NCBI GenBank assembly: GCA_017546175.1
Contig: JAFYXM010000010.1
Coordinates: 186,001-250,000, forward strand
DNA: 64,000 nt
DNA from: Elusimicrobiaceae bacterium
Lineage (GTDB): Bacteria; Elusimicrobiota; Elusimicrobia; Elusimicrobiales; Elusimicrobiaceae
Direction: 5' to 3'
In this document: one piece after another, positions 23,229 through 44,258 of the stretch
Layout of the letters: every line of letters begins with the position of its first letter
Numbering within the stretch: position 1 is the first letter of the stretch
Made by a program: the position numbers and the translations under genes
The notes under the pieces: generated by a model
Databases searched by the model: none
What the model was told of the DNA's origin: nothing
The model's input: the letters and a program-made list of their open reading frames with translations, nothing else

Positions 23229-23255
23229 ATTTTGCGCGACATTGAAAAAATTTAC

Positions 23256-23302
23256 TTGTTTTTTAAAACCTATTTGCTATACTATATTTAAGGTACTATC
23301 CT
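23256..23302 (+). promoter_or_regulatory. Pilin promoter region with shared TATCCTG-TACC block
   Basis: Two overlapping promoters are readable: TTGTTT-16-TATACT (23256-23283, extended TGC) and TTGCTA-17-TATCCT (23274-23302). The second has the same layout and -10 as the pilin promoter at 4315. AGGTAC-tatcctg-GTACCT (23291-23309) is an inverted repeat around it. Confidence 0.55.
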
Positions 23303-23331
23303 GGTACCTATTTTATTTGAGGAGAAATATT

Positions 23332-23829
23332 ATGAAGAAAGGTTTTACCTTGATTGAGTTGCTGGTAGTGGTACTCATTATCGGCATTTTGTCTTCTGTG
23401 GCCTTGCCGCAATACACCACGGCCGTAGAAAAAGCCCGCTCTACCGAAGCGGTTACCTTGTCTGGCAATATTCGCCATGCCGCGGAACGTTTCCGCTTGC
23501 AATCTAATACTTGGCCGACATCTTTTGACGACCTTGATATTGAAATTCCGGACAATAATTCCTCTACTACCGGTGCCCAAACCAAAAACTTTAGCATCAC
23601 GATGAGCAAAATTAACTCTAATGCAGATTTCTTGGTTACGGCTGCCCGCTCCGGCGGTACGGCTTACAGCATTTACACGGCTGTAGATGGGGAAGGCAAT
23701 GCCATTCGCTGCTGCGGAACATCCGCTCCGTCCTCTGCGGCTGCTTGTAACTCTACCACGCTTACCGGTGATGTGTTGAAAATCTGTAATGCTATTACCA
23801 GCGGTCACTATAAAGACGGTAAGTGGTAA
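23332..23829 (+). CDS. Type IV prepilin-like protein (orphan)
   Basis: 165 residues from the ATG at 23332 (GAGGAG upstream); the in-frame extension to 23242 lacks a start signal and would bury the prepilin leader. Leader MKKG followed by FTLIELL (Glu +5) and the helix VVVLIIGILSSVALPQY. The soluble part has a pilin-type alpha-helix with ARSTEAVTLSGNIRHAAERF, then a beta region and a Cys-rich end (CCG...AACN...ICN). Small size and leader favour PilE/PulG-type major or minor pilin. It has its own promoter and terminator. Confidence 0.9.
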   Translation: MKKGFTLIELLVVVLIIGILSSVALPQYTTAVEKARSTEAVTLSGNIRHAAERFRLQSNTWPTSFDDLDIEIPDNNSSTTGAQTKNFSITMSKINSNADFLVTAARSGGTAYSIYTAVDGEGNAIRCCGTSAPSSAAACNSTTLTGDVLKICNAITSGHYKDGKW

Positions 23830-24604: not shown

Positions 24605-24900
24605 ATTCCCCCCTTACGCAATACTGCAGCCAAGGTTTCTATTTCGCGTGCCTTGACTTTGGTATATTCTGAGTACAAAGACCCTTCGGCTAAAATGCCT
24701 TCGCGTTGCCAACGGGTCATGGCGTAGTCTTGCTCAAGTTTAGCTACCTTTTCTTCCAAGGTGAGCTCTGCAGGAGCAGTATTGACCACAATGACATACC
24801 GCTCTGCTTGTTTTTCAATGTGTGCGTCATTTTTGTTACACCAAATGGCCGCCTGCGTATAGTTTTCTTTGGTTAAAATTTCTCCGATTTTAAACATCAT
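24601..24900 (-). CDS. Phage protein of unknown function next to tail fibre
   Basis: 99 residues, soluble, no recognised family. Begins FKIGEILTKENYTQAAIWCN and continues as a charged helical region (EEKVAKLEQDYAMTRWQREGIL). Proteins of this size directly downstream of a tail fibre are often fibre-assembly or host-specificity accessories. Both ends overlap neighbours by four bases, so it is firmly part of the cluster. Confidence 0.5.
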   Translation of the reverse strand: MMFKIGEILTKENYTQAAIWCNKNDAHIEKQAERYVIVVNTAPAELTLEEKVAKLEQDYAMTRWQREGILAEGSLYSEYTKVKAREIETLAAVLRKGGI

Positions 24901-26087
24901 TCAGCTCCTTGTCCGCAAACATAATAAACGGTATCTATATTCCCTGCGCCGCCATTGATATAAATTTGAGTAGTAGAGATGGCTCCGGCTCTGGGAGAAC
25001 CTTCTTGTACCGTCGGGCCAGATGTGCCTCTTTGCACACACAACACCATGTACTGGGTATTTTGCATAGGAAGCAATAAAGAAACTTTGCTGGAAGTGGT
25101 ATTTCTTCCGCCTTGTTCTACCCAACCGCTTTTATAAATGCGGTACCAGTTTCCGTTTTCATCTGAAAATTGATCCACCACAAAGTCCAAATTTTCCCTT
25201 GCATTCCCCAAATCACAATCGGCTTTATTGTTCAAATTTTCCTGCATAGACAGCAGTTCTTGAACGCTTGCTGCTGCAGATTCTTGACTGGCTTTGGCTG
25301 ATTGGGCACTTTGGGCTGCAGAGGTTTGCGCCGTTTGCAAATCTTGTGCCGTCCTCTCAATAGTAACTTCCGCTTTTTCTACTTGCTCTGCAGCATCTAA
25401 CGTTTCACGGGCGGCATTCTGTATTTCTGTATGCATTTGCAAAATGTATGTTTGCATCTGAGATACCTCTTGCCTTGCTTGCTGGGCAGCCGCACAAGCT
25501 GTTGAGGAGGTATCTGCATAGTGTTGTAAATTATTGACCGCTTGGGTGACCTGCTGGCTAGCTTGCACGGCCGTTTGAGCCGCCGAGCTGGCAACAGACA
25601 TGCTTTGCTGAGCCACACTATTGGCTTGCTCTACGTCTTGTTTGGCATGCTCCAAAGCCAGCAAATAGCTGCCTGCATCTGCTTGATTTTGGTTGCTTCC
25701 CAACGGAAATTTGACTGCCAACTCCAGCTCTGCCGCCAATTCTTGCGCAATCATCATCGCTTTATCATATCCCTGTTCCAAAATATGTGGGTCAAAAGTT
25801 TGCTGTGCTAAAAGCTTGGTTTCTTGCGCCAACGGAGTTTTACGCTGAAGTAATAAACGTTGTTGAGCCGGTAATGGTAATACATCTATATCAGACTGAG
25901 GATAAATGAAAATTTTATTTTCCTCATCAATTTCAAAATTACTCAAAAGCGCTGTTTTTACATCCTTTTCATCTATTAGAAAAGCCGAAATATTTTCTTT
26001 ATTTAAAAAAGGAAAAGGAATATCCCATTGAGTAGTAGAGCCGTTTCCCTGATAAATCACATAAGGTTGTGTATTTCTTACCGTCAT
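24897..26087 (-). CDS. Podovirus tail fibre protein (T7 gp17-type N-terminus)
   Basis: 396 residues. The N-terminus (YQGNGSTTQWDIPFPFLNKENISAFLID) is the virion-anchoring domain shared by T7-like fibres. Residues ~100-290 are an Ala/Gln/Glu-rich trimeric coiled coil (QQARQEVSQM, AQSAQSAKASQESA). The C-terminal ~90 residues form a compact beta tip (YRIYKSGWVEQGG, then NTQYMVLCVQRG and NGGAGNIDTVYYVCGQG), which would bind the host receptor. The fibre is short. There is no chaperone or intramolecular protease domain. Confidence 0.8.
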   Translation of the reverse strand: MTVRNTQPYVIYQGNGSTTQWDIPFPFLNKENISAFLIDEKDVKTALLSNFEIDEENKIFIYPQSDIDVLPLPAQQRLLLQRKTPLAQETKLLAQQTFDPHILEQGYDKAMMIAQELAAELELAVKFPLGSNQNQADAGSYLLALEHAKQDVEQANSVAQQSMSVASSAAQTAVQASQQVTQAVNNLQHYADTSSTACAAAQQARQEVSQMQTYILQMHTEIQNAARETLDAAEQVEKAEVTIERTAQDLQTAQTSAAQSAQSAKASQESAAASVQELLSMQENLNNKADCDLGNARENLDFVVDQFSDENGNWYRIYKSGWVEQGGRNTTSSKVSLLLPMQNTQYMVLCVQRGTSGPTVQEGSPRAGAISTTQIYINGGAGNIDTVYYVCGQGAE

Positions 26088-27490
26088 TTTTTACTGTCCT
26101 CCAATCTCAAAATTTTCTTTGCATAAATGGCAGCATTCAGTTGATCTTGCAAATCGGGACCTACCGTATAAACCATGTATTTTAGTGCCTGTTTTTGATT
26201 TTTCCCTTGCTTTTGAGATTTGCCCAAATCTTCTACGGCTTCCAACAAAAGCTCTTCTGCGGGGTCTTGTGTGGCGACCTGTTTTTGGCAAAATTTATAA
26301 GAAAGCTGCAGATATTCTTTTGCATTTATTTTTTCATCTTTAAAAGAGTTTTCAATTTCTTGGCGTTTTATATCTCCCAGCACGATTTTTTCGTACAGCT
26401 GATTAAATACGGACGGATTAGCTCTCCCAGAAACATCATATCTTGCCAAGCAAGCTTTTTGTAGCAAATCAAAATGAGCGGGAGTCAAATCTTCTTGATA
26501 GGACCCCGTCAAAACAGCCGAGCTTTCCTGCAAGAGTAAATCTTTATATATCTGCGCCTCACGGGAAAAACGCCGACGGGCCTGACGGGCCATTTCACTG
26601 CAAAGCACTTGAGTAAAAACTTCTTTTTCCTGCGACGGAATATCTAAATTTTTTACAAACTTTTCCGCTTTTTCTTTAGAAAAACTGCCGTCTTCATTTT
26701 GCAGTTGACAGGTTATTTCCTTCGGCAATTTTTGCATTTGCTTTTCTGCTTTTTTGTGGCTGATTTGACGGCGCAAGATATGCGCCTTCTCCTCTGGCAA
26801 TTCAGACAAAAAATGATGATACGTTTTCTCTGCTTCTTCTACTTCTGCAGCGGCTAGAGCCGAAGCAATATTTTTAGTTACTGCTTTTTGACGCAAATCT
26901 GCCCGATAGGCACTCCATTCTTCTCCTGAAATACCGAAATCAGCCATTTCTTTTTCAGCTGACAACAAATTGCTCTGCATATATTCTTCTAAGGCCGCCG
27001 CACCAAGAGTAGCAGAGGCCGTTTTCAGAAAAACCTGCTCGCCCTGTGATAAACGTTCCTGCCGGGCATATTTTTGTTTTTCTTGCTCCAGTTGCCCCGC
27101 ACAATGGCGAAGCACCACGTAATCTTGTCGCAGCAAGGCATCTTTTTCAAATGATTCGGCATTAGCGGCTACATATTGGTCCAACTCTTCTACGACAGAA
27201 GTATCTTTGTTTTCAGAAGAAAGCAGATTTTTCTGAAAAAAATTGAGCAGTTCTGCGCGGTTCTTTGAAGAAAAATTAGCTGCTGTTTCTTGGATATTTG
27301 ACAAGGCTTCCTTCCCTAAACGCTGCGCCTCTTCAAAAACTTTTACTCCCGCCTTCATATATTCCCCTGTTGCGGCCCAATCAAACCAATGCTGCTTACC
27401 GCTGGACTCTTTTAAAGGACGGGCCAACCTAACTGCTCGTGCATAGTTTACCTGATAGGGGATATTTCTTTTATAAACCGGTATCTTCAT
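26084..27490 (-). CDS. Phage internal virion/ejection protein candidate
   Basis: 468 residues from ATG 27490 (GAGGAAT upstream, 10 nt after the previous stop). Begins KIPVYKRNIPYQVNYARAVRLARP, then nearly all alpha-helical, Gln/Lys/Glu-rich. The C-terminal part (SVFNQLYEKIVLGDIKRQEIE, then INAKEYLQLSYKF) resembles the repeat pattern of gp15-type ejection proteins. No transglycosylase motif is visible. In T7 this slot encodes gp15/gp16, which form the DNA-ejection conduit. Assignment rests mostly on position and composition. Confidence 0.55.
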   Translation of the reverse strand: MKIPVYKRNIPYQVNYARAVRLARPLKESSGKQHWFDWAATGEYMKAGVKVFEEAQRLGKEALSNIQETAANFSSKNRAELLNFFQKNLLSSENKDTSVVEELDQYVAANAESFEKDALLRQDYVVLRHCAGQLEQEKQKYARQERLSQGEQVFLKTASATLGAAALEEYMQSNLLSAEKEMADFGISGEEWSAYRADLRQKAVTKNIASALAAAEVEEAEKTYHHFLSELPEEKAHILRRQISHKKAEKQMQKLPKEITCQLQNEDGSFSKEKAEKFVKNLDIPSQEKEVFTQVLCSEMARQARRRFSREAQIYKDLLLQESSAVLTGSYQEDLTPAHFDLLQKACLARYDVSGRANPSVFNQLYEKIVLGDIKRQEIENSFKDEKINAKEYLQLSYKFCQKQVATQDPAEELLLEAVEDLGKSQKQGKNQKQALKYMVYTVGPDLQDQLNAAIYAKKILRLEDSKK

Positions 27491-27500
27491 ATATTCCTCT

Positions 27501-27995
27501 TTATTTTCCAATCAAACTGCCCATTTTGGCCCATAAGTTCCAACGAGAGCGTTTGGCTGCCGTACGGTATTGCTGAGCTTCGGTGCGGTATTGCCATGCT
27601 TCTAAAGCAGCCTGTGTGTTGGTTTGTTCTAACGAACGAGCCATATTCTGTGCCAATGTTTCCTGATCCAGTAAAGCATTTAGACGGCTATTTTTTAGAA
27701 TCTTTTGTACCGTGGCAGATTGTAACCCCAGCCCGTTGGCAGCCAAAGATGTTTTTTGTGCACCTAGCAAACTGGAATAATTACGTGAAAGCTCACTATT
27801 TTGATATCCGGCATCTTCAAAAATATATTCGCTGTTTTTCTTGGCATTTTCCTCCGTCTGCTTGGCTTGATCTTCAGCTACTTTTGCCAAAGAACGGTAG
27901 TAGTCTTTTTCTTGGTCCGCACCCCCCAACAAAGAAGCGGCCGTAGATAAAACACTTCCCCCCTTAAATAAAACATTTCCTAAAGCTCCTCCCAT
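27501..27995 (-). CDS. Phage internal virion protein candidate (gp14-like slot)
   Basis: 164 residues. Gly/Ala-rich hydrophobic N-terminus (GGALGNVLFKGGSVLSTAASLL), then a helical Gln/Asn/Ala-rich body (EENAKKNSEYI, SLAANGLGLQSATVQKIL). Ejection proteins of this size with a membrane-active N-terminus follow gp13 in T7-like genomes. TAAGGAGG precedes the ATG. Family not certain. Confidence 0.55.
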   Translation of the reverse strand: MGGALGNVLFKGGSVLSTAASLLGGADQEKDYYRSLAKVAEDQAKQTEENAKKNSEYIFEDAGYQNSELSRNYSSLLGAQKTSLAANGLGLQSATVQKILKNSRLNALLDQETLAQNMARSLEQTNTQAALEAWQYRTEAQQYRTAAKRSRWNLWAKMGSLIGK

Positions 27996-28008
27996 TTTTT
28001 CCTCCTTA

Positions 28009-28533
28009 CTATTTTTTCAGATCTTTATTTGACCCGCCGAATTGATATAACTCAAAAGAAGTTTCCTTTCCTGCTAAATTAATTTTTTGGCTTAGTTTAC
28101 TCCCCCCCAAACGAACGATATAATGCCGTGCTTGCAAATATCTCTCATCACACAAAACATACAAATATGGATAAACAGATAAAAAATATCCCAGTACACT
28201 CTTGGATACTTTCCAAAACAGCTTGGGAATTTTTTTTACTTTCTTGCTGGTCCATGACCACAAACATCCGCGCCCTCCCAATAGACTCTCCGCTTCCACT
28301 CCGGCTACGGCACATACTTTGCCCTGATGCAAAAAAGCCAAAGAAACAGCCGATTTTTGGTAACATAGACTTAACACCTCTCTAACAGGCAAACGGTATG
28401 CCGCCCACATTTCCGCGCAATCTTGCGCTTGTAAAGACGGTGCAAGATCTGACAAATGTTCTTTACAAAGGGGTACCAAACTAATATCATTAGAAGAGGT
28501 AGTTTTTTGTAGAAAGGAGGGTAGTATGTCCAT
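28009..28533 (-). CDS. T7 gp13-like internal/assembly protein
   Basis: 174 residues from the ATG at 28533; the longer frame to 28647 has no start signal. It reads like the acetyltransferase-fold gp13 family: LVPLCKEHLSDLAPSLQAQDCAEMW, then a basic loop (WTSKKVKKIPKLFWK) and YLYVLCDERYLQARHYIVRLGG, the GNAT-like A-motif end. The place after tail tubular B and before gp14-like fits T7 order. There is no good Shine-Dalgarno; the region upstream is now occupied by the oppositely oriented gene at 28526, whose first codons overlap this start by 8 bp. Confidence 0.55.
   Translation of the reverse strand: MDILPSFLQKTTSSNDISLVPLCKEHLSDLAPSLQAQDCAEMWAAYRLPVREVLSLCYQKSAVSLAFLHQGKVCAVAGVEAESLLGGRGCLWSWTSKKVKKIPKLFWKVSKSVLGYFLSVYPYLYVLCDERYLQARHYIVRLGGSKLSQKINLAGKETSFELYQFGGSNKDLKK
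28462..28490 (+). promoter_or_regulatory. Promoter of the inserted plus-strand gene (moron)
   Basis: TTTACA (28462-28467), 17-nt spacer, TATCAT (28485-28490), lying inside the coding region of the opposite-strand gp13-like gene. An AAAGGAGGG ribosome site follows before the ATG at 28526. Confidence 0.6.
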
Positions 28534-29251
28534 ATTAGCTGTTTTTTTAATTCTTCTAGGATTGCTTTGCTTTGGAATCTTTTTTCTTATTTTTAAACTT
28601 ATTTGGATTTTGTTTAAAAAGAAACGCAATTTCTGGCCCTTGGTCATTTCGGGCGTGTTGAGTGGTATTGTCGTCTTAGCGGCAGGTATTTTTTCCTATG
28701 CAATGTACAGACAATTCGTTAAACCGTTTGACCCCATTGTCCAAACGGTCAAAACACAGACCACTTTGATTGACGGACACCGCCTCTATACTAACCCGCT
28801 GGGCTTTGCCGTTACCTTGCATGACGGCACGACATTAAGCAATTGGCTCACGGTAGATGATTGGAGTTTTTTAATAGGGGTGGACACCAATATGTTTGTG
28901 AACAAAAAAGACCCTAATCAACCTTTCTCTTTATATTTACTGGGGCATGAAGTAGATGACGAACCGTCCAACGCACACTATTTGATGAGCGAAATCTCAC
29001 AGGGTCTTGCTCAAAGCAATTCTTCCAAGGGACGTATTGAAATTGAGCAGGTAGTCCCTGTCAATGTAGGCACAGATGCTGAGGGAGAACTGATGAAATT
29101 GACCGCTTATCCCTATGATCAATCTACTCCCATCACCTTCTCTTTGGTCATTGCCACCAAGGGACATGACACTTATTTCTTGGCAGGGTTGGGCAATGCC
29201 GGCAACGATAAAATACTAGATACTGTCAGCAGTTTTGTCATTACCAAATAA
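28526..29251 (+). CDS. Double-pass membrane protein carried as a moron in the phage cluster
   Basis: 241 residues, family not recognised. Two membrane helices at residues 3-30 and 38-61, joined by a short basic loop (FKKKRN), are followed by a ~175-residue exported domain (LYTNPLGFAVTLHDG, LGHEVDDEPSNAHYLMSEISQG, ending DTVSSFVITK). It runs against all surrounding phage genes and has its own promoter, strong ribosome site (AAAGGAGGG) and terminator. That is the definition of a moron: a gene expressed independently of the lytic operon. Superinfection exclusion, receptor change or a host-fitness function are possible; none is shown. Confidence 0.75.
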   Translation: MSILAVFLILLGLLCFGIFFLIFKLIWILFKKKRNFWPLVISGVLSGIVVLAAGIFSYAMYRQFVKPFDPIVQTVKTQTTLIDGHRLYTNPLGFAVTLHDGTTLSNWLTVDDWSFLIGVDTNMFVNKKDPNQPFSLYLLGHEVDDEPSNAHYLMSEISQGLAQSNSSKGRIEIEQVVPVNVGTDAEGELMKLTAYPYDQSTPITFSLVIATKGHDTYFLAGLGNAGNDKILDTVSSFVITK

Positions 29252-29268
29252 CAAAGATGAAGATTTCT

Positions 29269-29299
29269 TAAACGCCCGATGAACAATCGGGCGTTTTTT
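29269..29299 (+). terminator. Terminator of the moron gene
   Basis: 10-bp stem AACGCCCGAT/ATCGGGCGTT with a short GAACA loop and seven T on the plus strand. On the minus strand only three T follow, so the phage transcript should read through. Confidence 0.8.
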
Positions 29300-31902
29300 T
29301 AACAAATTTGTGTAATTACTGCCAGCAGCGTAACCGGCAAAGGATCTTTCTGCACAAATTCTACCGTCGGGAAAACAGAATGTGAGGAAGAAATCACTTT
29401 GCAAAAATCTCGTGTTTGCAGGGGTGGAGCTTTTGCGTACACCTCTGCCGCCGGTGCATATAACTCCTCCGGTTTTCCCCCTTCAGCAGCGGCAGCTCCG
29501 CCGCGGCTATCTAACATTTTAAGCGTTATTTTTACCAAACGCCGGCGGCGATCTTGCATACTTCCTTCCGAGGTTTCAAAAGACACCGGCAAGGTACACA
29601 ACCCAGCTTGATAAGCCAGCCCCACATGTGCAGTACAAACAGCCTGCGGAAAAAGGACTTTTCCATCTTGAACCGATAAGTCCGTTAACGGATTTCCATC
29701 TGCCAAAGCAGATACCTTTCGCCCTTCCAAATGATCCAGACCACCCATTTCCGTAAAAGATTGGGTACTTTTTTTAGATACACTACAATCTAAAAAAATC
29801 TGATCTTCCACCTCTTTACTGGTCATGCGAGGCAACAACCGTTCAACAAAATATTTCCCATCGCGCCGTATCAAAAACCACATTTCGTCATATCCTTTGG
29901 AGGGAATACTGCAGGCACTGATAAATTGCCCTTGTGTTTCATGACGGGTCCAAGCAAACATATCTTCTTCAGACAAATAGGTCAAACACAACAAAGAGCC
30001 ATCTTTTAACACGCACCAAATCAAATTATCGGGTTCTTGCTGATAGACCAATGTTTTTATTTCTTTATTAAAAAACAGATGCTTCGCCCGAAGCGTCAAA
30101 TCTCTGCCAATATAGGAAGCACTGCTGTAATCATAAAAAAATTCCCGCACCACTCCGCCGCGTGCCTGTACATACAAGGTGCGACTGCCTACAACAATGG
30201 GAACGACCGAACTGGCACCGCGTTCCCCTTCTTGGGCAATTTCTATGTTATAAGGAGTCAAGGCACCGTTACAGCTTAAGCTCCATTCACTTCCGGCCGT
30301 AAAAATCAATAATTTGGGACCGACGGCTATAGAATTAATGGCATTTAACTTTTTACTGGAAAGATTGATACTAATAGCGTCGGAAGCTTCCAAATTGCGC
30401 AAATAACCAAAATTTTCATATTCCCCCGTTTTTGAAAACCAAATAGATTGCGGTTCTTTTTTAGTACCGGCAAAACCTAAACGGTCTTGATAGAAAAAAA
30501 TACAACTGGGGTAGCCGGCTTCTTCGTGAAAGGCGCCCTCGGCCCAATCGTAAGTCCACTCCTGCATACTGCCCGCCTGACGCTGCAACGATACTAACAT
30601 CTGACGAGGATTGACATAGCCTTCCAATTTTACAATTCCTTCCTGTACAAAGGCATCTGCCTGCAAAATATACCCCATTTCACCGGTAATCCCCAAGCAA
30701 CGCAAACGTAAAAAACGCATTTTGGCCGATATTTCCAAATTGCCAAGCGTATTGATATTCTCTTCATTTTGGGCTTTGCTAAAATGTTTTACTTTATTCC
30801 ACGTTTTTTGGTCGTCTGAGTATTCTAAAACTACTTCTCCATACCAGCTTCCCGTCGTACGCAAACGCCAATCGCCACTGGTTTTGATAATGCCGGACAC
30901 CCCTTCATAAGACAAAGTTCCCGTTTCATAAGAGCTTTCCATACGGTGATTTAAAGCAAACAGCCCCCCCACTTGAGCAGGACGAAACAAATCAAAATCT
31001 GCTTGCAAATAAAGCTTTTCTTCCCCGACACTAACTACTTCTCCGGCATTATACCCGCCGCTAAGCGTTTGGGTAACCACCAATTTTGGCTCTGACAAGA
31101 GCGACTCCCGGTATTCTATAACCAATTGAGAGCCATTATAATCTCCTCCCGTTTCCTGTGGTGATTCAATACGCAGCACCCCGCCCTGATTGTAGGCCAC
31201 ACATCCGGTAGAAGAAAATCTTTTGTTAAAGGAAAGCACCACATCCGCTACATCAAACCCATAATCAAGCGGGTCATAAAAACCTTGCCCACACCAATAA
31301 ACATGTACAATGCAGTTGGGATCATTAATCGGCAAAAAAGATAAAGTGGCTTTTACCCCGTCAGAAATCACAGTATCGCTTTGCAAAGATAAACGTACTT
31401 TCTTTTGCTCATCTGTGTTTGATAGCATAAAAGGACCGTCTTTGAGCTGCATGTCCTCCAGTACAAAAAATCCCTCTTCGGTACGCGTTAACTTTTGAGG
31501 ATAAAAATCTGTATGTACCAAAAAAAGAGTTTGGTCGTATTGGACATAATTAATCTTATCCAAATCTTTGGAGAGGTAAGGAGAAGCAATCTCATAAATT
31601 TGCCCTTCTTTCATAAGGGTCCCGGCCGAAGCATGCACGCGAATGTATTGCTCCCCCAGTTCCAACACATAAGACTCCTCTTCCGACAACACAAAGGGAA
31701 TTAAACGGCAGTTTTTATCTGCGTATTTGGCGGTATTGACATAGGCCGTTCCGGCACGGTTAGAGGCGCCGCCCTGCGGATGCACAAAAAAATTGCACGC
31801 TTTTTTAAGCCAAGAGCCATAAGTTTGCACATCTACGCGCGAGTATAAATGCGGGCTAACCTCTCCGCCTGAAAAATTGGGCTGTGTTGCATGATAGACC
31901 AT
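29299..31902 (-). CDS. Tail tubular protein B / nozzle protein (T7 gp12-like)
   Basis: 867 residues from the ATG at 31902 (GGGAGGAA upstream). The opening YHATQPNFSGGEVSPHLYSRVD and the NFFVHPQGGASNRAGTAYV segment are the signature of podovirus nozzle proteins. The rest is beta-rich (propeller-like), with PRQMLVSLQRQ, SCIFFYQDRLGFAGTKKEPQ, and WSLSCNGALTPYNIEIAQE. It forms the distal tail tube below the tail tubular A ring and may contact the receptor. The stop lies within the terminator of the oppositely oriented moron. Confidence 0.87.
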   Translation of the reverse strand: MVYHATQPNFSGGEVSPHLYSRVDVQTYGSWLKKACNFFVHPQGGASNRAGTAYVNTAKYADKNCRLIPFVLSEEESYVLELGEQYIRVHASAGTLMKEGQIYEIASPYLSKDLDKINYVQYDQTLFLVHTDFYPQKLTRTEEGFFVLEDMQLKDGPFMLSNTDEQKKVRLSLQSDTVISDGVKATLSFLPINDPNCIVHVYWCGQGFYDPLDYGFDVADVVLSFNKRFSSTGCVAYNQGGVLRIESPQETGGDYNGSQLVIEYRESLLSEPKLVVTQTLSGGYNAGEVVSVGEEKLYLQADFDLFRPAQVGGLFALNHRMESSYETGTLSYEGVSGIIKTSGDWRLRTTGSWYGEVVLEYSDDQKTWNKVKHFSKAQNEENINTLGNLEISAKMRFLRLRCLGITGEMGYILQADAFVQEGIVKLEGYVNPRQMLVSLQRQAGSMQEWTYDWAEGAFHEEAGYPSCIFFYQDRLGFAGTKKEPQSIWFSKTGEYENFGYLRNLEASDAISINLSSKKLNAINSIAVGPKLLIFTAGSEWSLSCNGALTPYNIEIAQEGERGASSVVPIVVGSRTLYVQARGGVVREFFYDYSSASYIGRDLTLRAKHLFFNKEIKTLVYQQEPDNLIWCVLKDGSLLCLTYLSEEDMFAWTRHETQGQFISACSIPSKGYDEMWFLIRRDGKYFVERLLPRMTSKEVEDQIFLDCSVSKKSTQSFTEMGGLDHLEGRKVSALADGNPLTDLSVQDGKVLFPQAVCTAHVGLAYQAGLCTLPVSFETSEGSMQDRRRRLVKITLKMLDSRGGAAAAEGGKPEELYAPAAEVYAKAPPLQTRDFCKVISSSHSVFPTVEFVQKDPLPVTLLAVITQIC

Positions 31903-31903
31903 A

Positions 31904-32491
31904 TTAGCGTTCCTCCCAGAAAGCACTTGAGCCGTGATGCAGCTCAAAATTTTCCGTCATATTACAGCGGCGTGCCTCATCTAAGACTAAGGTGTATTTT
32001 TGCAAAATACGCTGTGTCAGTGCCACGTCTCCGGTTAACGTAACGGCTAAATCAGCCGCCAGTGCTAAAGAGAAAGCTTTAACAAAGGCCGGATCAAAGC
32101 CGCCCTCATCTGTTACATCACGGGTATATTCCGCACGCGCTTGGTCAATTCCACAGTAAATAACTTTAGCATGAATATCGTTTTGGTAAAGCTCTTTAAA
32201 TTCACAGGCCTGATGATGATTTCCTGCCCCAAAAACACGCCTGAGAAACAAACAATCTTGCGGATAGGCATACATATAAGGCCAATCAGAAGCTTTATTT
32301 TGCTGTAATAAAGCCAAAGTGCTCACACTGGCGGCAAAGGCCCAATTATGGGTTCTTAATACTTCTCTTTTTACCGGTTCATAAAATAAATCGCACCTAC
32401 GGGCTCTTTCATTATCTTGTTTTATAGAGGAAATAGGTTCTTGACCTAAATGAGCTAAAGCCATATTACATATATCTATTTTTGATATCAT
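31904..32491 (-). CDS. Tail tubular protein A (T7 gp11-like)
   Basis: 195 residues, helical. MISKIDICNMALAHLGQEPISSI is the standard opening of the gp11/adaptor family, followed by CDLFYEPVKREVLRTHNWAFA and VTLTGDVALTQRIL. It makes the ring that joins the portal to the tail nozzle. GAGGT precedes the ATG. Its stop is 1 nt from the tail tubular B start. Confidence 0.9.
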   Translation of the reverse strand: MISKIDICNMALAHLGQEPISSIKQDNERARRCDLFYEPVKREVLRTHNWAFAASVSTLALLQQNKASDWPYMYAYPQDCLFLRRVFGAGNHHQACEFKELYQNDIHAKVIYCGIDQARAEYTRDVTDEGGFDPAFVKAFSLALAADLAVTLTGDVALTQRILQKYTLVLDEARRCNMTENFELHHGSSAFWEER

Positions 32492-32510
32492 TTTTTACCT
32501 CAATTTTAAT

Positions 32511-32709
32511 TTATATTAAATTTTAATGTTTTTTTAATTTAGATGTAATATTAAAAATTAATACTATTTTTAAAAATACTTATATTTTAATTGTTTTTTG
32601 TTTTATACAAATTTGCTTATCAAATATAAAATTTATATACCAAAAGTAAGCCATTTTCAGATGTTATTTTAAAAATATTTATATTTTAATGTTTTTTTAA
32701 TTTTAAATT
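32511..32709. repeat. Imperfect AT-rich direct repeats
   Basis: Two long copies about 100 bp apart (32563-32600, 32664-32700) agree at most positions, each near an AGATGT(T/A)AT element (32541 and 32660). A third partial copy sits at 32511-32541. Confidence 0.5.
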
Positions 32710-32949
32710 ATTTTTATTATTTCAAAAAAATTTTAGAAAAAGGTTTATATATACTTTCTCCTGATATCTAAATTTTTTTAAAAAACAAATAAAAAAATAG
32801 ATGTTTTGCATTATAATTACACGTTTTTTAAGCCAAAATCGCCTATTTTACCCTTATTTTCCATTTTTCACATAACCCCCACAATCTCTTATACCCCAAA
32901 AGCCAAAACAAAGAGGATTTATGATTATAATTCCAAGAAAACAAGAATG

Positions 32950-32982
32950 GGGGCGCGGGAGACACCCAAAAAACCGCGCCCC
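32950..32982 (-). terminator. GC-rich hairpin downstream of capsid genes
   Basis: Perfect 9-bp stem GGGGCGCGG/CCGCGCCCC with a 15-nt loop. On the minus strand it is followed by the T-rich CATTCTTGTTTTC rather than a clean T-run, so it may be a weak terminator or an RNA processing/stability element. Confidence 0.5.
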
Positions 32983-32993
32983 TCGGGCTACGA

Positions 32994-33371
32994 TTACATA
33001 TCCGTAATACCTGTGACAAACAAAGACAGTTTCCCTGCCGTTGCCGTACCCGTTACGCTATAGTAACCGCGAATATATCTTTTAGCTCCCAAAGGCAAAA
33101 CCATTTTAAGCAAGGTTTTACCGCCTTTTAAATCTTCCGTTTCAAAAGAAGCTTCTGCCAAATCTTTCCAAACGCCAAAATCAGATTGATCCGAAGTTTG
33201 TAAAGAAATCTTCAAACCGTTAAGTCCGGCAAAATCTTCCACCGTTTGGGCCACCACCATGGCATGAGCGCAGCTATCGCCTGCGGCGGCTTGATCAATG
33301 ATATTTTCAGAAGCACAGGAAGAAGTAAGAGCCTGCTTATCCGAAAGCACTAAAGTAGCATCAATTAACAT
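32994..33371 (-). CDS. Bbp16-like capsid cement protein
   Basis: 125 residues. LIDATLVLSDKQALT, then ASENIIDQAAAGD, VEDFAGLNGLKISLQTSDQS, and LPLGAKRYIRGYYSVTGTATAGKLS match the Bbp16 family of Bordetella phage BPP-1, a beta-tulip decoration protein that stabilises the capsid. AAGGAG precedes the ATG. Lies directly after the major capsid gene, as in BPP-1. Confidence 0.82.
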   Translation of the reverse strand: MLIDATLVLSDKQALTSSCASENIIDQAAAGDSCAHAMVVAQTVEDFAGLNGLKISLQTSDQSDFGVWKDLAEASFETEDLKGGKTLLKMVLPLGAKRYIRGYYSVTGTATAGKLSLFVTGITDM

Positions 33372-33434
33372 ATTTTCTCCTTAATACAAGGGCAAAGCCC
33401 ATGCACCGCAAATGCAAACTGCGGTGCAAAAAAA

Positions 33435-34412
33435 CTAGAGAACTACATTTTCCGTATCTGTGATAGCATCACAAATATGTACCGGAATTTCGTTAAACGT
33501 CATTAACGGACGGCTGGTAATCTGATCCGGTGTATATTGTACATTGTGCTTATTGCTGGTCAATTTACGCAAAGCCGCTTTGACGGTGCGGTTCATATAC
33601 CAGAACGGTCTGCCCAAATTTAAACTTTGGATGCGTTCTTCAAGTTCGCACATTTTATCAATAAGATCTTCGGACACATTGGTAACGTCAATATTACAGA
33701 TACGGCCCGCATAACGCCAATCTTGCACCGCTAACCCCAATTTCCATTCAAAATACTCTTTATAAGCAGGATATTCATTACCTTCGGCATCGGTATGATT
33801 GACAAGACCGTGGTCCACCCGCTCAATACCTGCCTTGGAACCATGCGGGAAGAAGGTAAAAATCTTATCGCTATCCCACACTACCAAGTAAATGGAGGAG
33901 TTTTGCCCATCGGTTTCACCGCCTGCATCAATGACGTTACGGGCACTTTCTGCCTCCGTCAAGGTATTGTAACGGGCCGCTAAACCGGTAAAACGCTCCG
34001 GAGTTTGACCGGCATTTCCATAGATCAAATTGCTGGCCATGGTGTTGGACATACCGGCAATAATAGCCTTGCTTTGTCCGGTACGCACAGCCTGCAGGTT
34101 GCCCCCTTTTTCGGCTACCAATTTATCTACTACGGAGTAGGAGGATAAAGTGCCATAGCCCTCCACCACCACTTTGGTGGTCGCTTTGGCAGGCTCAATA
34201 CCTTGATAGGCTCTGCGCCAAGTCCCTTCCGGAATGCCGGTACGCACGGCATATTCATGTCCGGAATCTAAGTTACTTTCTACAACCAACGCATCACCGA
34301 TGATATCATTAGATTTGCTTAATACCTCTGCAATAGCCAGCTCTTGCCCGGACTCATCAAATTGTTTGGCATAGTCTAAGAGGTTGTAATATTTATCTGC
34401 AATAATAGCCAT
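33435..34412 (-). CDS. Major capsid protein (HK97-fold, BPP-1 type)
   Basis: 325 residues. Family segments: NDIIGDALVVESNLDSGHEYAVRTG, WRRAYQGIEPAKATTKVVVEG, then FTFFPHGSKAGIERVDHG, DWRYAGRICNIDVTN, and the C-terminal ITSRPLMTFNEIPVHICDAI. They are typical of major capsid proteins of BPP-1-like and related podoviruses, with an N-arm, E-loop and P-domain layout. No N-terminal delta-domain longer than ~30 residues, so a separate scaffold (next gene upstream) is expected. Complete and undisrupted. Confidence 0.88.
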   Translation of the reverse strand: MAIIADKYYNLLDYAKQFDESGQELAIAEVLSKSNDIIGDALVVESNLDSGHEYAVRTGIPEGTWRRAYQGIEPAKATTKVVVEGYGTLSSYSVVDKLVAEKGGNLQAVRTGQSKAIIAGMSNTMASNLIYGNAGQTPERFTGLAARYNTLTEAESARNVIDAGGETDGQNSSIYLVVWDSDKIFTFFPHGSKAGIERVDHGLVNHTDAEGNEYPAYKEYFEWKLGLAVQDWRYAGRICNIDVTNVSEDLIDKMCELEERIQSLNLGRPFWYMNRTVKAALRKLTSNKHNVQYTPDQITSRPLMTFNEIPVHICDAITDTENVVL

Positions 34413-34460
34413 AAATGAAATTTTCCTTTTAAGTTGGTCCTTACGGACAGAGAAAACCGT

Positions 34461-35033
34461 TTAATCGGCTTTCCCGTATAAAGCTTCTGCGAAAGTTTTA
34501 TCGGTCGTGCTGCGCGCCGCACCGCCGATAGAACGGTCTTCGCTGATGCTTTTGCTGATTTCATAAAAAGTCTTAATGATAACGGGGTGGCTTCCCAAGC
34601 CGGTGACATCTAAAAGCTCTCGCAGCTCTTCTCCGCCAAAACGCTGTGCAGCAGACAAAGCAGAGGTCAAATGCTTTTGATAGCAAGGCCCCAGCATTTC
34701 TTTGGTCTGCGCCGTCCATTTATCCAAGATTTGACCGCGTACTTCTTCGGATATTTTCCGTCCTTCCGTCAAAGTTTGCGCTTGCCAATCTAATAGTCTT
34801 TGCACCGTTTCGGCAGGAAGTTGCAGCTGGTTTGCCAATGTCTTAAAAGATTGCCAATTTTCTTCACACTCTTTTAATTCGCTCGGTAACTCTAGCTCTT
34901 CGTATCCGTCAGACTTTTCTACAGAAGACAGCTGATCGGGGGCGGATACATTTTCCGCTTCGCTCAGCCGGCCGGTTGCTTCGTCGGCCTGAAATTCATA
35001 GGTTTGGGGTTTAGTGTTTACTGTCTCAGACAT
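34461..35033 (-). CDS. Capsid scaffolding protein
   Basis: 190 residues from the ATG at 35033 (GAGGAGC upstream). Acidic, disordered first third, then helices (LANQLQLPAETVQRLLDWQ, ILDKWTAQTKEMLG) and the region LGSHPVIIKTFYEISKSISED, which is the common end of podovirus scaffold proteins. Position between portal and capsid genes fits. Overlaps the end of the Bbp19-like gene by 8 bp. No protease motif is seen. Confidence 0.75.
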   Translation of the reverse strand: MSETVNTKPQTYEFQADEATGRLSEAENVSAPDQLSSVEKSDGYEELELPSELKECEENWQSFKTLANQLQLPAETVQRLLDWQAQTLTEGRKISEEVRGQILDKWTAQTKEMLGPCYQKHLTSALSAAQRFGGEELRELLDVTGLGSHPVIIKTFYEISKSISEDRSIGGAARSTTDKTFAEALYGKAD

Positions 35034-35337
35034 AATTTTGCTCCTCGTTTTCTTCATCAATTTCATGTTGCAAAGAATTTACTTCCGACATATACTCCGC
35101 TCTCATCTGTGCCAGTATCAAAGCAGAGACTTGCAAAATTTGGCTTTGTAAAAAAAGAGCCATGCTTTTTTGCCCACAATGAAACGCCGTTGCATACGGA
35201 TCCGACGGCACAAAACCATGATTTTCCAATTGTCCCGCCTGCAATAACCGCCACAACACTCGCCGCCCTTGCGGCAATTTCAGCACGGCAGCCAAGTCAG
35301 ATAAGTTTCTCTTTTCAATAGATTTTTTCTTCATCAT
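35026..35337 (-). CDS. Bbp19-like phage protein
   Basis: 103 residues. DLAAVLKLPQGRRVLWRLLQAG and the following PYATAFHCGQKSMALFLQSQI match the small Bbp19 family (DLxxVLxxPxGRRxLWRLL...GxR), found next to capsid genes of BPP-1-like phages. Function not established. Acidic tail EIDEENEEQ. Confidence 0.72.
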   Translation of the reverse strand: MMKKKSIEKRNLSDLAAVLKLPQGRRVLWRLLQAGQLENHGFVPSDPYATAFHCGQKSMALFLQSQILQVSALILAQMRAEYMSEVNSLQHEIDEENEEQNYV

Positions 35338-35355
35338 TTCATTCCTGCTTTTGAC

Positions 35356-35420
35356 GGGGAAGGAAATGACTGAGCATTTCCTTCCCCACTGCGTAGGGGG
35401 GCTCGTTAATTTTAGGCCTC
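35356..35420. other. Tandem intercistronic hairpins between portal and Bbp19-like genes
   Basis: A perfect 13-bp inverted repeat, GGGGAAGGAAATG/CATTTCCTTCCCC with a 6-nt loop (35356-35387), is followed by a GGGGGGCT/GGCCTCCCC stem with wobble pairs (35396-35424). Neither has a T-run. They resemble RNase III processing or mRNA-stability hairpins of T7-like transcripts. Confidence 0.6.
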
Positions 35421-35447
35421 CCCGCGCCGCAGCATTATTTTTAGATT

Positions 35448-37013
35448 TTATTTTTGCTCACTAAGAGATAACTGCGCCATATTGACAGCTTGTCGCCGGG
35501 CTCTGATACGTTGTGTATCTTCTTCATCGCGCAAAAGTACCGGCGGCACTCCCAAAAGGTCCAAACCTTCTTCTACGGCAGCATCAAAATCAATTTTATC
35601 CAGCACTTCCGGATTTCCTTGCGCCAAACGTGAGATAAAATTAATTCCTTGTTCAATCCCATTCATGCCGCTTGCTTTTTGGGCCTGTGCAATCATAGAC
35701 ACGTATTGCACTTTTATATCCTCCCCCTCCACAATCGGCGGCGGCAGCGGAATCACTCCCCGACGGAACATAATATTAAACGTACGCTCAATGAGCGGGT
35801 CTAAAAGTTCATTTTTAAGCCGTTCCAATACCGGCCCCAAAACCAACATTTTTTCTTGATGTCTTTCTGCCACTTCCGTAGCGGTCATGTGAGAAAAATT
35901 CTGCGCACTGAGCATCAGGAAAACATCAGCAAAAAATTGCCCTTTAATGGTTTGTTTCACACGCTCTATGCTGCTTTCCAAAGCAGCCAAATCAATAGAC
36001 ACTTGATAGGCGGGTTTAATGGCGGCATCGGTGGTACCGTTGTAGCGGGTCAACCCTCCCGGAAGCAAATTCACTTCTCCTTGCACATTGGCAGAAACCA
36101 TCATGGGAGGATTGGTGTTTTTATCCAAAGCCACCAACTTGGCTTTTTGCATCTTTTGCAGCATTTTCACATCTCCCAAGGTTTTCCACCCCGGTCCACG
36201 GCCGTAAATATCAGAAGAATTTTTCACTTCCCAACGCGCAGCTATAACCGGAAACTCTTGATATCCGCCACGTTTGAGCAAATGTCCCTGAGGGGTAAAA
36301 TAAGCCGAAACATACGGCATATGTGCAAAATCTATTTTGCTCTCATCGGCCTGCGGGTTGGGCATAATTACGTGCATCACTTTAAACCAATCTGTTTTCT
36401 GTGTTTCGCTACGTCCGACCACGGAAAGCGGCAAATTTTCTTTACCAAATGCCTCAACCATTTGTTCTGCCGTCATAAAAAACTCACGTCCGAATGAATT
36501 TATATTGCCGCGGCTATCGGTGCCCAACACATATTCCCCCGCGGTAAAACTGCGGCAAGAAATTACTTTATCAGCATCTTCCTCCAGCAAAAAAGCCGCT
36601 GTACCAAAGACAGAAATTTCTTGATAAAAACTATGTAATGTGTTGTAAATGTTGGAGCGGCTAAAAACTTCTTCCATTCTGCGTTTTACTTCATATAGCC
36701 AGCGGCGTACACCGTTTTGCTTCATAATCTCTTCATCAGAAAGATTCAGCTCAAACCAACTGCGGCTAGGACTGGTAAGACCCGACATCATCCCCGCTGC
36801 CAACACCTCTACAGCCAACATAGGATCAGAGTCTATCAAAGCGCGGTGATCTATTTTTCGTCCGCTATTGGCAGAGTCTCCCTCAAAAAAACCGCGCGTA
36901 GGAGCGATAAATTTGGATAATTCTTTCCATGTGCCTTGCCATGTTTGACTTTGTGCTTTCATGACGTCATACTGCTTACGGAAAAGTTCCGTTTCTTGTG
37001 TTTTGTAACTCAT
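35448..37013 (-). CDS. Portal protein (podovirus head-tail connector)
   Basis: 521 residues, normal length. Head-tail connector family marks: WKELSKFIAPTRGFFEGD, VEVLAAGMMSGLTSPSRSWFEL, LYEVKRRMEEVFSRSNIYNTLHSFYQEISVFGTAA, FPVIAARWEVKNSSDIYGRGPG, and the C-terminal ERTFNIMFRRGVIPLPPP. It forms the dodecameric ring through which DNA enters. AAGGTG precedes the ATG. Promoter at 37360-37332 is 310 nt upstream, with the small plus-strand gene 37100-37279 lying antisense in the leader. Confidence 0.93.
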   Translation of the reverse strand: MSYKTQETELFRKQYDVMKAQSQTWQGTWKELSKFIAPTRGFFEGDSANSGRKIDHRALIDSDPMLAVEVLAAGMMSGLTSPSRSWFELNLSDEEIMKQNGVRRWLYEVKRRMEEVFSRSNIYNTLHSFYQEISVFGTAAFLLEEDADKVISCRSFTAGEYVLGTDSRGNINSFGREFFMTAEQMVEAFGKENLPLSVVGRSETQKTDWFKVMHVIMPNPQADESKIDFAHMPYVSAYFTPQGHLLKRGGYQEFPVIAARWEVKNSSDIYGRGPGWKTLGDVKMLQKMQKAKLVALDKNTNPPMMVSANVQGEVNLLPGGLTRYNGTTDAAIKPAYQVSIDLAALESSIERVKQTIKGQFFADVFLMLSAQNFSHMTATEVAERHQEKMLVLGPVLERLKNELLDPLIERTFNIMFRRGVIPLPPPIVEGEDIKVQYVSMIAQAQKASGMNGIEQGINFISRLAQGNPEVLDKIDFDAAVEEGLDLLGVPPVLLRDEEDTQRIRARRQAVNMAQLSLSEQK

Positions 37014-37099
37014 AAATCACCTTGACTAAAAAATATATACTGCCTGCAAGTAAAACAAAAATTTATTAGGATATAGAAAACAGCAAACAGGAGAATATT

Positions 37100-37279
37100 A
37101 TGTGGGGTTTACTAGGTATTTTGATTTTCGTACTGCTTTTATCTTTTCCGGGGTTTTACATCATTACGCGAAAAGTGTTTGCGCGTGGAAGCAAACGTAG
37201 TGCCGTTTGGCTTTCCGCAGCCGTTACCGCCCTATTGTTGATAGGACTACTGCTTATGATGTTTGGAGCAATTTTGTAA
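37100..37279 (+). CDS. 59-residue double-pass membrane protein, second plus-strand gene in phage cluster
   Basis: MWGLLGILIFVLLLSFPGF begins the first helix; a basic loop (TRKVFARGSKRS) and a second helix (LSAAVTALLLIGLLLMMFG) follow, ending AIL. An ACAGGAG ribosome site stands 7 nt before the ATG. It is oriented against the phage genes and sits between portal and terL. The helix-basic loop-helix plan is the same as the N-terminus of the moron at 28526. An ACCCG-AA-CGGGT palindrome follows the stop. No family recognised. Confidence 0.65.
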   Translation: MWGLLGILIFVLLLSFPGFYIITRKVFARGSKRSAVWLSAAVTALLLIGLLLMMFGAIL

Positions 37280-37331
37280 GTAATATTTTACCCGAACGGG
37301 TGTAGATTTACTAGAGAAACCTGATAAAACA

Positions 37332-37360
37332 AATATAGCATATTTTGTTAGTTTTGTCAA
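37332..37360 (-). promoter_or_regulatory. Promoter for the portal-capsid transcript
   Basis: Minus strand: TTGACA (37360-37355), 17-nt spacer, TATATT (37337-37332). An imperfect inverted repeat AACAAA-tatagcata-TTTTGTT (37329-37351) overlaps the -10 and spacer and could be an operator. Confidence 0.7.
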
Positions 37361-37436
37361 GTTTCTTGTTAGTATTTTTATATTTCTCGTCTAAGATTTT
37401 TTGAATTCTTATTTCTTTTTTGCGTAAAAGTTAGCT

Positions 37437-38762
37437 TTATAACACATTATATTCCGTTTTGGCAAAAGAAGATGTGCCGTTCTTTTTCATTACGGGCATA
37501 GCAAAAGTGAGTGCTAAGGCATCGGCCAAGTCGGGGCTTTTTCCGCTGCGTGCTTTTAAGTCCTCTTTGCTTTCCAGCTTCATTCTGCCGGCCGGGTCAA
37601 AACTGTAGCGAATTCCGCATAAATCTGCCCGTAAAGCAGGGTTTGAAGGCAAGGCTCCCCCGTCGCACAGCCATTGGGCCATCTCCCCCCACATTTCCGC
37701 CCGTTTATTGACATATTGACCCGTTTTAAGAGGAGCAGAGCCAAAATTTACTTCAAAAACTTCAAAACCCAACTGACGCAATCTATCTATAACCCCACCC
37801 CCACAACCGCCATCTATAAATACGGCATCCGGGTGAAAATTTTCCATCGCCAAAGCCACATGCGCCGCCAAGGTCATTTGATCCGTTTTACAAAAGACTT
37901 CCGGCTCAAAACCTTGAAGTCCCTGTCGTTTAAAAATTACGCTGCGATCCGTTCCAAAACGCGCCGGATCTACCCCCATTATTTTAGGTGCATAGCGAAC
38001 CTCGGCCGGGCTGTATTTGCGTTCTTGCGATTTTAACACATCACAAATACTGATCAACACATCCTCCGCATCGGCCGTAAAATCACACAAATATTCCTGA
38101 CGAAATAAATTCTCCGGTGTATGCTCTTTAATTTCTGCCAACTCTTGCACTGAAATAACGCCCGTTTGATCTGCAGGGAACACCCCACACCACCATTGAT
38201 GTGGGCGCGAAATCATGGCTTTTTGCGCCTGTTGATACAATTGATAAAACTGATTCTGCCCTTTCGGAGTACCTGTAAACAAAGTCCATCCTTGGCGAGA
38301 AAGTAACATCGGTCTTACAATTTCATCAAATACGTCGGGCTTAATTTGAGCATATTCGTCCAAAACCACCCCGTCGGCATAAGTACCGCGCAAGGCATCC
38401 GGATTATCAGCTCCCAACAGCCAAACTTTAGCTCCGTTAGGCAGAATGACACTTAACTCCGTTTCAGACAATTTAACACCGGGCAAAGGAGCTGTGTATC
38501 TACGCATATAATCCCATGCAATCAGCTTGGTTTGCTTTAAAAAAGGAGAGATATAAAAATAACGAGGGGACGGCTGCTGATTTATCAAAGCACTTTTCAG
38601 CAGATGATTGATAGCACATACCGTTTTACCCATTTGCCGATGCGTAACCAATACATTAAAACGATGTTTCTCCAGCTGCTTATGGATTTCCGTCTGAGGA
38701 TAGCGCGGTTTATACGGGATAACCACCGTTTTGTTATTTTCCGTTTTTTGTTTCGTCCCCAT
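37437..38762 (-). CDS. terL: Terminase large subunit
   Basis: 441 residues. ATPase domain: VTHRQMGKTVCAI (Walker A variant), ADGVVLDEYAQ (Walker B with catalytic Glu), LFTGTPKGQNQF (coupling motif). Nuclease domain: IMGVDPARFGTDRSVIF (first Asp), VFIDGGCGGGVIDRL (second), SPDLADALALTFA (third). All catalytic residues for ATP-driven packaging and DNA cleavage are present. Starts directly after the terS stop, with GGAGGAAT as ribosome site. Intact, which argues against simple decay of the element. Confidence 0.95.
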   Translation of the reverse strand: MGTKQKTENNKTVVIPYKPRYPQTEIHKQLEKHRFNVLVTHRQMGKTVCAINHLLKSALINQQPSPRYFYISPFLKQTKLIAWDYMRRYTAPLPGVKLSETELSVILPNGAKVWLLGADNPDALRGTYADGVVLDEYAQIKPDVFDEIVRPMLLSRQGWTLFTGTPKGQNQFYQLYQQAQKAMISRPHQWWCGVFPADQTGVISVQELAEIKEHTPENLFRQEYLCDFTADAEDVLISICDVLKSQERKYSPAEVRYAPKIMGVDPARFGTDRSVIFKRQGLQGFEPEVFCKTDQMTLAAHVALAMENFHPDAVFIDGGCGGGVIDRLRQLGFEVFEVNFGSAPLKTGQYVNKRAEMWGEMAQWLCDGGALPSNPALRADLCGIRYSFDPAGRMKLESKEDLKARSGKSPDLADALALTFAMPVMKKNGTSSFAKTEYNVL

Positions 38763-39212
38763 TTATTCCTCCCAATGCACCACCAGTGTGCTTGGCTGTT
38801 TTTTCCCTTCTTCTTTTCCGTCATGCCAACCCAATAAATTTTTAGCCGTAAATACGGCAAAAGAAGAGGAATAATTTCCGCGCAAGCTGTTTTGAATCAA
38901 GATATTTCCTTGCAAATCTCGGGCTTTTTGCACCGCTTGCGCAAACTCCGGATATTGCCGCTCCCAGTCGGTCAAAACCTCTTGCGTAACTCCTAATTTT
39001 CGTGCAAAAGCCGCAAAAGTAGGCAGCTCTGCTGCGGTTTCTATCAGCGCTACGGAGCCGTCTTTTTTCATTACTTCCGTAACGGTAAAAGCAGATATAT
39101 CAAAAAAAGCCAAAAGCTCCTGAACATACCGGCTTTGATAACTAAAAGAATTATTTTTAGAATTTCTTTTTTTTCTTGGAGAAGATACAGTTTGTTTGGT
39201 AAGAGAAGTCAT
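38763..39212 (-). CDS. terS: Terminase small subunit
   Basis: 149 residues from the ATG at 39212; a longer frame to 39299 would begin with TTG and a hydrophobic tail unlike the family. Basic N-terminus (SPRKKRNSKNN), HTH-like helices (LPTFAAFARKLGVTQEVLTDWERQYPEFAQ), then an oligomerisation helix and FTAKNLLGWHDGKEE, the usual small-terminase ending. No clear Shine-Dalgarno, so the start is less certain. First gene after the operator-promoter at 39304-39361. Confidence 0.85.
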   Translation of the reverse strand: MTSLTKQTVSSPRKKRNSKNNSFSYQSRYVQELLAFFDISAFTVTEVMKKDGSVALIETAAELPTFAAFARKLGVTQEVLTDWERQYPEFAQAVQKARDLQGNILIQNSLRGNYSSSFAVFTAKNLLGWHDGKEEGKKQPSTLVVHWEE

Positions 39213-39303
39213 ATTAAAAGCAGAAATAACAAGCAAGAAATACCCGATGAGTGCGGGCAAAAGAGGAGATAAAATAAATTTGGGGAAAAATAAGGACAAA
39301 AAA

Positions 39304-39361
39304 ATACAAACTTTAATCGTTTGTATATAATTATTATATCAAATTTTTTTAAATTTGTCAA
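39304..39361 (-). promoter_or_regulatory. Consensus promoter with operator-like palindrome heading the phage cluster
   Basis: Minus strand: TTGACA (39361-39356), 17-nt spacer, TATAAT (39338-39333), a perfect sigma-70 consensus. Around the start point lies a perfect 8-bp inverted repeat, ATACAAAC-tttaatc-GTTTGTAT (39304-39326). A repressor bound there would block initiation. Confidence 0.8.
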
Positions 39362-42603: not shown

Positions 42604-42606
42604 ATA

Positions 42607-43182: not shown

Positions 43183-43192
43183 AGGCTTGCTC

Positions 43193-43735: not shown

Positions 43736-43746
43736 AGTTTTTCTAG

Positions 43747-44247: not shown

Positions 44248-44258
44248 ATCTTCGCTCC

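Follow-up and report, generated by a model that had tools for sequence, protein, structure and literature searches.

SieA of phage P22 blocks DNA injection at the inner membrane, that of transducing particles included, and does so via the ejection proteins, while gp15 of HK97 is a moron-encoded exclusion protein acting at the same membrane (PMC10883804). DcrB is cited as a protein that controls phage DNA injection (in PMC7773334). GTAs are defined by six features: particle proteins derived from Caudoviricetes, a fully endogenised genome, mostly vertical inheritance with host co-diversification, random host DNA in the particles, a genome of their own that is not fully packageable, and DNA delivery to other cells (PMC9662315). 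The Faecalibacterium FpGTA is a podovirus-like GTA whose particles were isolated (PMC12946183).

Here we describe a gene embedded in a podovirus-derived cluster of an Elusimicrobiaceae bacterium which can be set beside each of these systems. Like SieA, its product is a predicted small inner-membrane protein that is encoded with a short-tailed phage genome and occurs in very divergent types; unlike SieA, for which three helices are predicted, it combines two predicted helices with a PsbP-fold domain and belongs to a vertically inherited cluster; the two are likened by description and not by sequence. By analogy, we infer that its action may be SieA-like. HK97 is a long-tailed mobile phage, in contrast to the apparently domesticated podovirus cluster considered here, and gp15 is likened by role, not by homology.

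The window, that is the whole 64,000-nucleotide stretch of DNA analysed (a stretch of contig C8 in a 1.34-Mb host genome), carries on its minus strand a GTA-like structural cluster of the epsilon15/BcepC6B type (24897–39299, 14.4 kb). Its genes follow the order terS, terL, portal, p35, protease, GP7-type capsid, p32, TTA and TTB and, beyond the plus-strand gene under study, the gp13-like and phrog_418 genes for two internal virion proteins, helical orf26 and tail fibre. Virion-type genes are readily recognised (portal, E 5.7e-163; GP7 capsid, E 1.1e-113; terminase; tail proteins), and no integrase or replication gene was found among the cluster genes. The closest phage record, BcepC6B, has a capsid 39.8% identical and the same order from terS to gp13, but is a complete phage in which gp12 and gp13 overlap with nothing between them, and its long gp15–gp17 are absent or shortened in the cluster. 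A candidate promoter of the particle cluster, TTGACA-17-TATAAT, lies ahead of terS (39333–39361, minus strand). Of 27 loci, the majority retain it with 11–12 of 12 positions matching, and TGC or TGA usually precedes the -10 element; as this candidate is both strong and conserved, the operon must be repressed by some other means. Both flanks consist of host genes for O-antigen ligase, secretion and type IV pilin-like proteins. Type IV pilin-like genes are unusually numerous near the cluster site (23242–23829, plus strand; 41414–44343, minus strand; also at locus L089), possibly linking these genes to DNA uptake.

To place the cluster, 61 Elusimicrobiaceae genomes of the genus (Candidatus Avelusimicrobium, UBA1436) were compared, metagenome assemblies that come mostly from gut and rumen, the genus placement resting on capsid relatives named in GTDB records. 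The capsid gene was present in 57 of the 61 genomes, as a single copy in 54, with 83–97% identity, and it was absent from all 40 order relatives from outside the genus. As for the four capsid-less genomes, G012 and G055 hold other cluster parts at contig ends, G006 is only 78% complete, and G060 seems to be the sole genome to have lost the cluster. In nearly all 61 genomes the cluster occupies a single site between host genes, with order and orientation kept and flanks partly the same across the genus. A tree of four concatenated cluster proteins has 16 of its 26 splits in common with a host tree from one marker, ileS (rpoB was not found in this assembly), compared to a maximum of 3 after shuffling, and the Mantel r is 0.89. 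Values of dN/dS of about 0.02–0.1 for capsid, portal, terL, TTA and TTB indicate purifying selection.

Three GTA features are thus recognisable in the cluster, namely Caudoviricete-derived particle proteins, full endogenisation and mostly vertical inheritance, the last as judged from one host marker. Because these are the three that can be read from genomes, we call it GTA-like rather than GTA. Taken together, the genomic comparisons indicate a domesticated, vertically inherited podovirus cluster and not an ordinary prophage. It resembles FpGTA in that a structural operon of GTA type, derived from a podovirus-like ancestor, is conserved throughout a gut genus; FpGTA differs in belonging to another phylum, in being split into two operons and in that the section consulted describes no antiparallel gene embedded in it, and the present cluster looks GTA-like from its genes alone (PMC12946183). 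In the literature searched, whose reach left out most subscription papers, no paper joining Elusimicrobiota and GTAs was found; the cluster adds to the likely GTA carriers a deep-branching phylum from which we found no GTA reported.

Related capsids, 34–67% identical, were observed on contigs from IMG/VR, Reyranella, Rhodospirillales and Planctomycetota (L157–L161, L163–L188), none of them with the membrane-protein gene. A second, more divergent capsid copy (35–71% identical) was present in 3 of the 57 capsid-bearing genomes, G007, G026 and G049. These copies lie at L098 (G007:C9) and L096 (G049:C2), both with linked structural genes, and at G026:C4:13671–14621. They probably represent separate prophages in the same hosts, which are possible targets of an exclusion protein.

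The gene under study extends over 241 codons on the plus strand (28526–29251; ATG at 28526, stop at 29249–29251), as read directly from the sequence, and is single-copy in the host genome. Its promoter, TTTACA-17-TATCAT (-35 at 28462–28467, -10 at 28485–28490, plus strand), with a conserved AAACTA just 5' of the -10 element, is nested within the coding sequence of the gp13-like internal virion protein gene (28009–28533, minus strand; phrog_308, E 3.6e-18). The ribosome site AAAGGAGGG was read directly at 28513–28521 (plus strand), and an AAGGAG-like site is retained in nearly all homologues. Downstream, an intrinsic terminator (29271–29300, plus strand), composed of the hairpin AACGCCCGATGAACAATCGGGCGTT (29271–29295, -16.7 kcal/mol) and a T-run, abuts the stop codon of the gene for tail tubular B (TTB), a nozzle-like protein (29299–31947, minus strand; phrog_376, Phage_nozzle); a hairpin with T-run is found 3' of 33 of 41 homologues. 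The starts of the gene and of the gp13-like gene overlap by 8 bp (28526–28533), and no Shine-Dalgarno sequence is visible at the gp13-like start (28533, minus strand). The first-pass annotation had described exactly such a plus-strand gene, with promoter, ribosome site and terminator of its own, between the TTB and gp13-like genes and with this 8-bp overlap, and the sequence confirms it on each of these points.

The extended motif TTTACA-N10-AAACTAN-TATCAT recurs, without exception ahead of this gene, at 25 homologues in 23 genomes (one has TATGAT) and bears out the proposed promoter. In the whole host genome it has one site, the next best having 3 mismatches and the reversed control 4 sites, and the genome-wide motif search revealed no regulon. 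Across 15 genomes, the gp13 codons beneath the promoter show almost no synonymous variation, as indicated by six invariant columns (codons 16–18 and 22–24: GAT 14/14, ATT 14/14, AGT 15/15, CTT 12/12, TGT 15/15, AAA 15/15) that include six-fold degenerate Ser and Leu, compared to 2–6 codons used in each of most other gp13 columns. Second tandem copies of the gene are also preceded by the motif, with no gp13 there. By this cross-genome comparison the promoter is judged real and under selection. In the other half of the genus, a different conserved element occurs, ATAAAAA-N-TATAATAA.

Using a profile built from 39 family members, we detected the gene in 51 of the 61 genus genomes, in none of 40 genomes outside the genus and in none of the fetched phage and prophage relatives. 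A direct search of viral contigs, phage records and GTDB contigs returned no homologue, in part because the peptide patterns used are overly specific for a family of such divergence. The gene lies opposite to TTB in 45/45 loci, a constancy for which one insertion event, and not selection, may be responsible, and its dN/dS of 0.09–0.19 indicates purifying selection. It is not an invariably present, essential part of the cluster, the possibility against which the first-pass annotation had set its proposal: it is missing from 9 of the 57 capsid-bearing genomes. These nine fall on a single side of the host tree, and the gene's presence and absence require about seven changes on a quick tree. In those gene-less clusters that were inspected, the TTB and gp13 genes abut or overlap, as in phage, which implies that the insertion did part gp13 from its upstream gene; this agrees, as do the related phages without the gene, with the proposed insertion of an independent transcription unit between the two. 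Two genomes (G005 and G045) hold the gene twice in tandem, with diversified copies. Overall, the comparison of genomes identifies the gene as an accessory yet long-retained part of the cluster.

An own promoter and terminator together with absence from phage relatives are textbook signs of a moron, the label originally given to the gene. The label holds insofar as a unit with its own promoter and terminator lies between genes that adjoin in relatives; it fails in that neither phage nor prophage carries this unit, and the idea of a moron of a mobile prophage is contradicted by vertical inheritance at one site across the genus. It is very unlikely that the gene arrived with a prophage that now makes up its surroundings, whether mobile or decayed of late, in view of the fixed site, the host-congruent tree, the lack of integrase and replication genes in the cluster and the intact reading frames, and no such gene accompanies the separate prophage-like capsid copies of this family in G007 and G049.

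In G060, the gene occupies the site of the cluster: its neighbours are the transporter and the pilin found on either side of the cluster in G054. The gap between these two is about 2.3 kb compared to 14.6 kb, and none of the cluster genes was found there. This copy is open over 243 codons and has no clear ribosome site. Retention in this one genome without the cluster suggests that the gene is separable from particle making. It would also suit an envelope protein unrelated to particle entry, serving the host surface or lipoprotein or pilus handling and parked in the cluster by chance, as would the many envelope tasks of PsbP-fold proteins and the pilin-like genes crowding both flanks. We nevertheless consider such a role unlikely, since the gene keeps one position and orientation in 45/45 loci, was seen outside the cluster in no genome but G060 and, in clade A, shows distances that track those of cluster genes beyond ileS.

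The encoded protein was modelled with AlphaFold2 using the family alignment (pLDDT 93). The model predicts transmembrane helices at residues 2–29 and 36–77, separated by a cationic loop (KKKR), followed by an ectodomain (about residues 83–241) with the PsbP/Mog1/DcrB fold. By the positive-inside rule, the cationic loop between the helices would place this domain outside the cytoplasm; the model thus supports the two membrane helices and exported domain of the first-pass annotation. Its further statement that the domain belongs to no known family stands at the level of sequence and fails at the level of fold. No family scored above its curated cut-off (for the PsbP/Mog1/DcrB superfamily the best was PsbP_2, E 0.05, in 1/39 members), a PDB sequence search gave no match, and PADLOC, PHROGs and NCBIfam scans gave weak scattered matches only. 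By structure, the ectodomain matches CyanoP (residues 83–240; Foldseek E 6.5e-7, VIA Z 15.1), DcrB (Z 11.3) and the periplasmic T6SS immunity proteins TplEi/Tli4 (Z 11) and Tsi3 (Z 8). Likeness to the DcrB/PsbP/Mog1 superfamily (CyanoP, Eag chaperones, Tsi3, TplEi) is thus one of fold in residues 83–241, with no significant sequence similarity, and the present protein differs in its extra two-helix anchor and in forming a genus-restricted family.

The protein might alternatively be holin-like, its two helices and periplasmic domain serving to release the particles. There is a weak holin resemblance in 11/39 family members (best E 0.00095; phrog_1129, E 0.028), and the scan of the cluster genes brought up no further lysis gene. 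The gene product itself scores 15 bits against Holin PF07332, below the cut-off of 28.4, its ectodomain is large and folded, and the gene is antisense to the particle operon and so ill placed for late expression. The nine gene-less clusters and the G060 copy without a cluster disfavour a virion part as well as a lysis part, and we regard a lysis function as most improbable.

Within the family, conservation is highest in the two helices and the loop between them and lowest in the final two thirds of the ectodomain. In G001, G020 and G043, TTB is 94–97% identical and the ectodomains only 72–73%. The pair G001/G043 allows the fibre to be compared as well, and here divergence is confined to this gene and the fibre tip, the tip being 58% identical. 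In the close pair G047/G051 the ectodomain is no more variable than TTB, and the hypervariability rests mainly on one tight clade. The fibre tip (fibre gene 24897–26087, minus strand; fibre 3' ends also at L066 and L071) forms a second diversity hotspot, the rest being about 95% identical. Over the whole genus, orf26 stood out in distance correlation with the gene (partial r 0.48), a signal that was gone within clades, so that orf26 was rejected as co-variation partner; no ejection-protein partner was singled out by the distance correlations.

We tentatively propose, with a probability of roughly 0.4, that this accessory cluster gene encodes an inner-membrane protein that blocks or filters DNA entry by particles or short-tailed phages. 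The gene's own promoter, of housekeeping type, would drive transcription antiparallel to the particle operon and yield an inner-membrane protein in which a cationic loop in the cytoplasm joins two helices and a PsbP/Mog1/DcrB-fold domain lies in the periplasm. In cells not making particles, this protein would sit in the inner membrane and block or filter incoming DNA delivery by binding periplasmic ejection or tail-tip parts of incoming particles or related short-tailed phages, with ectodomain alleles setting the specificity. Action on incoming particles appears the best reading because the ectodomain varies with the receptor-binding tip and because the gene is dispensable to the cluster, can outlive it and lies on the opposite strand; the effect on superinfection suggested by the first-pass annotation is plausible. 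Against such gating, nine cluster-bearing genomes do without the gene, its retention in G060 concerns one genome and a copy without a clear ribosome site, and the PsbP/DcrB fold serves many tasks (photosystem assembly, Eag chaperones, lipoproteins).

The protein could conversely be an entry factor of the recipient, made in non-producers and helping GTA DNA across the envelope, as DcrB helps that of some phages, with alleles that match kin fibre or ejection proteins and so restrict exchange. The anatomy, fold and distribution fit equally, the similarity to DcrB included, and RcGTA non-producers make a receptor (PMC9662315). The cluster has no counterparts of the long gp15–gp17 of BcepC6B, so delivery could need a host factor, and a gene without a cluster, as in G060, suits a pure recipient. 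Genomes with the cluster and without the gene (nine) speak against it, and the tandem diversified copies in G005 and G045 resemble an exclusion repertoire more than a docking factor. Exclusion and assisted entry predict opposite effects in recipients. As the tandem diversified copies and the absence from otherwise intact-looking clusters lean towards exclusion, we consider an entry factor possible but rather unlikely.

With regard to exclusion, the layout further suggests that an operon transcript reaching gp13 would run antisense across the whole gene, so particle production should shut off the gate protein. A GTA with a mutually exclusive producer/recipient switch, in which producers silence the gate by antisense and non-producers expose a hypervariable, allele-specific gate, is a doubtful extension of the exclusion proposal. 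If the proposal holds, this would be the first GTA-type cluster known to us that carries its own exclusion or gating protein. The gene, which is hypervariable as the fibre tip is and can be separated from the cluster, makes it testable how GTA producers and recipients are kept apart and what confines transfer to kin.

Some minor features of the cluster were also observed. Its region 3' of gp13 (24897–28533, minus strand) is much shorter than that of BcepC6B and holds only a 475-aa helical protein. The structure model of orf26 is all-helical (pLDDT 86) with no match in the PDB, and orf26 is a candidate ejection protein from its position only. In several genomes, portal and terL are separated by inserts that are variable and reach about 4.7 kb (e.g. 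L092:4655–9346).
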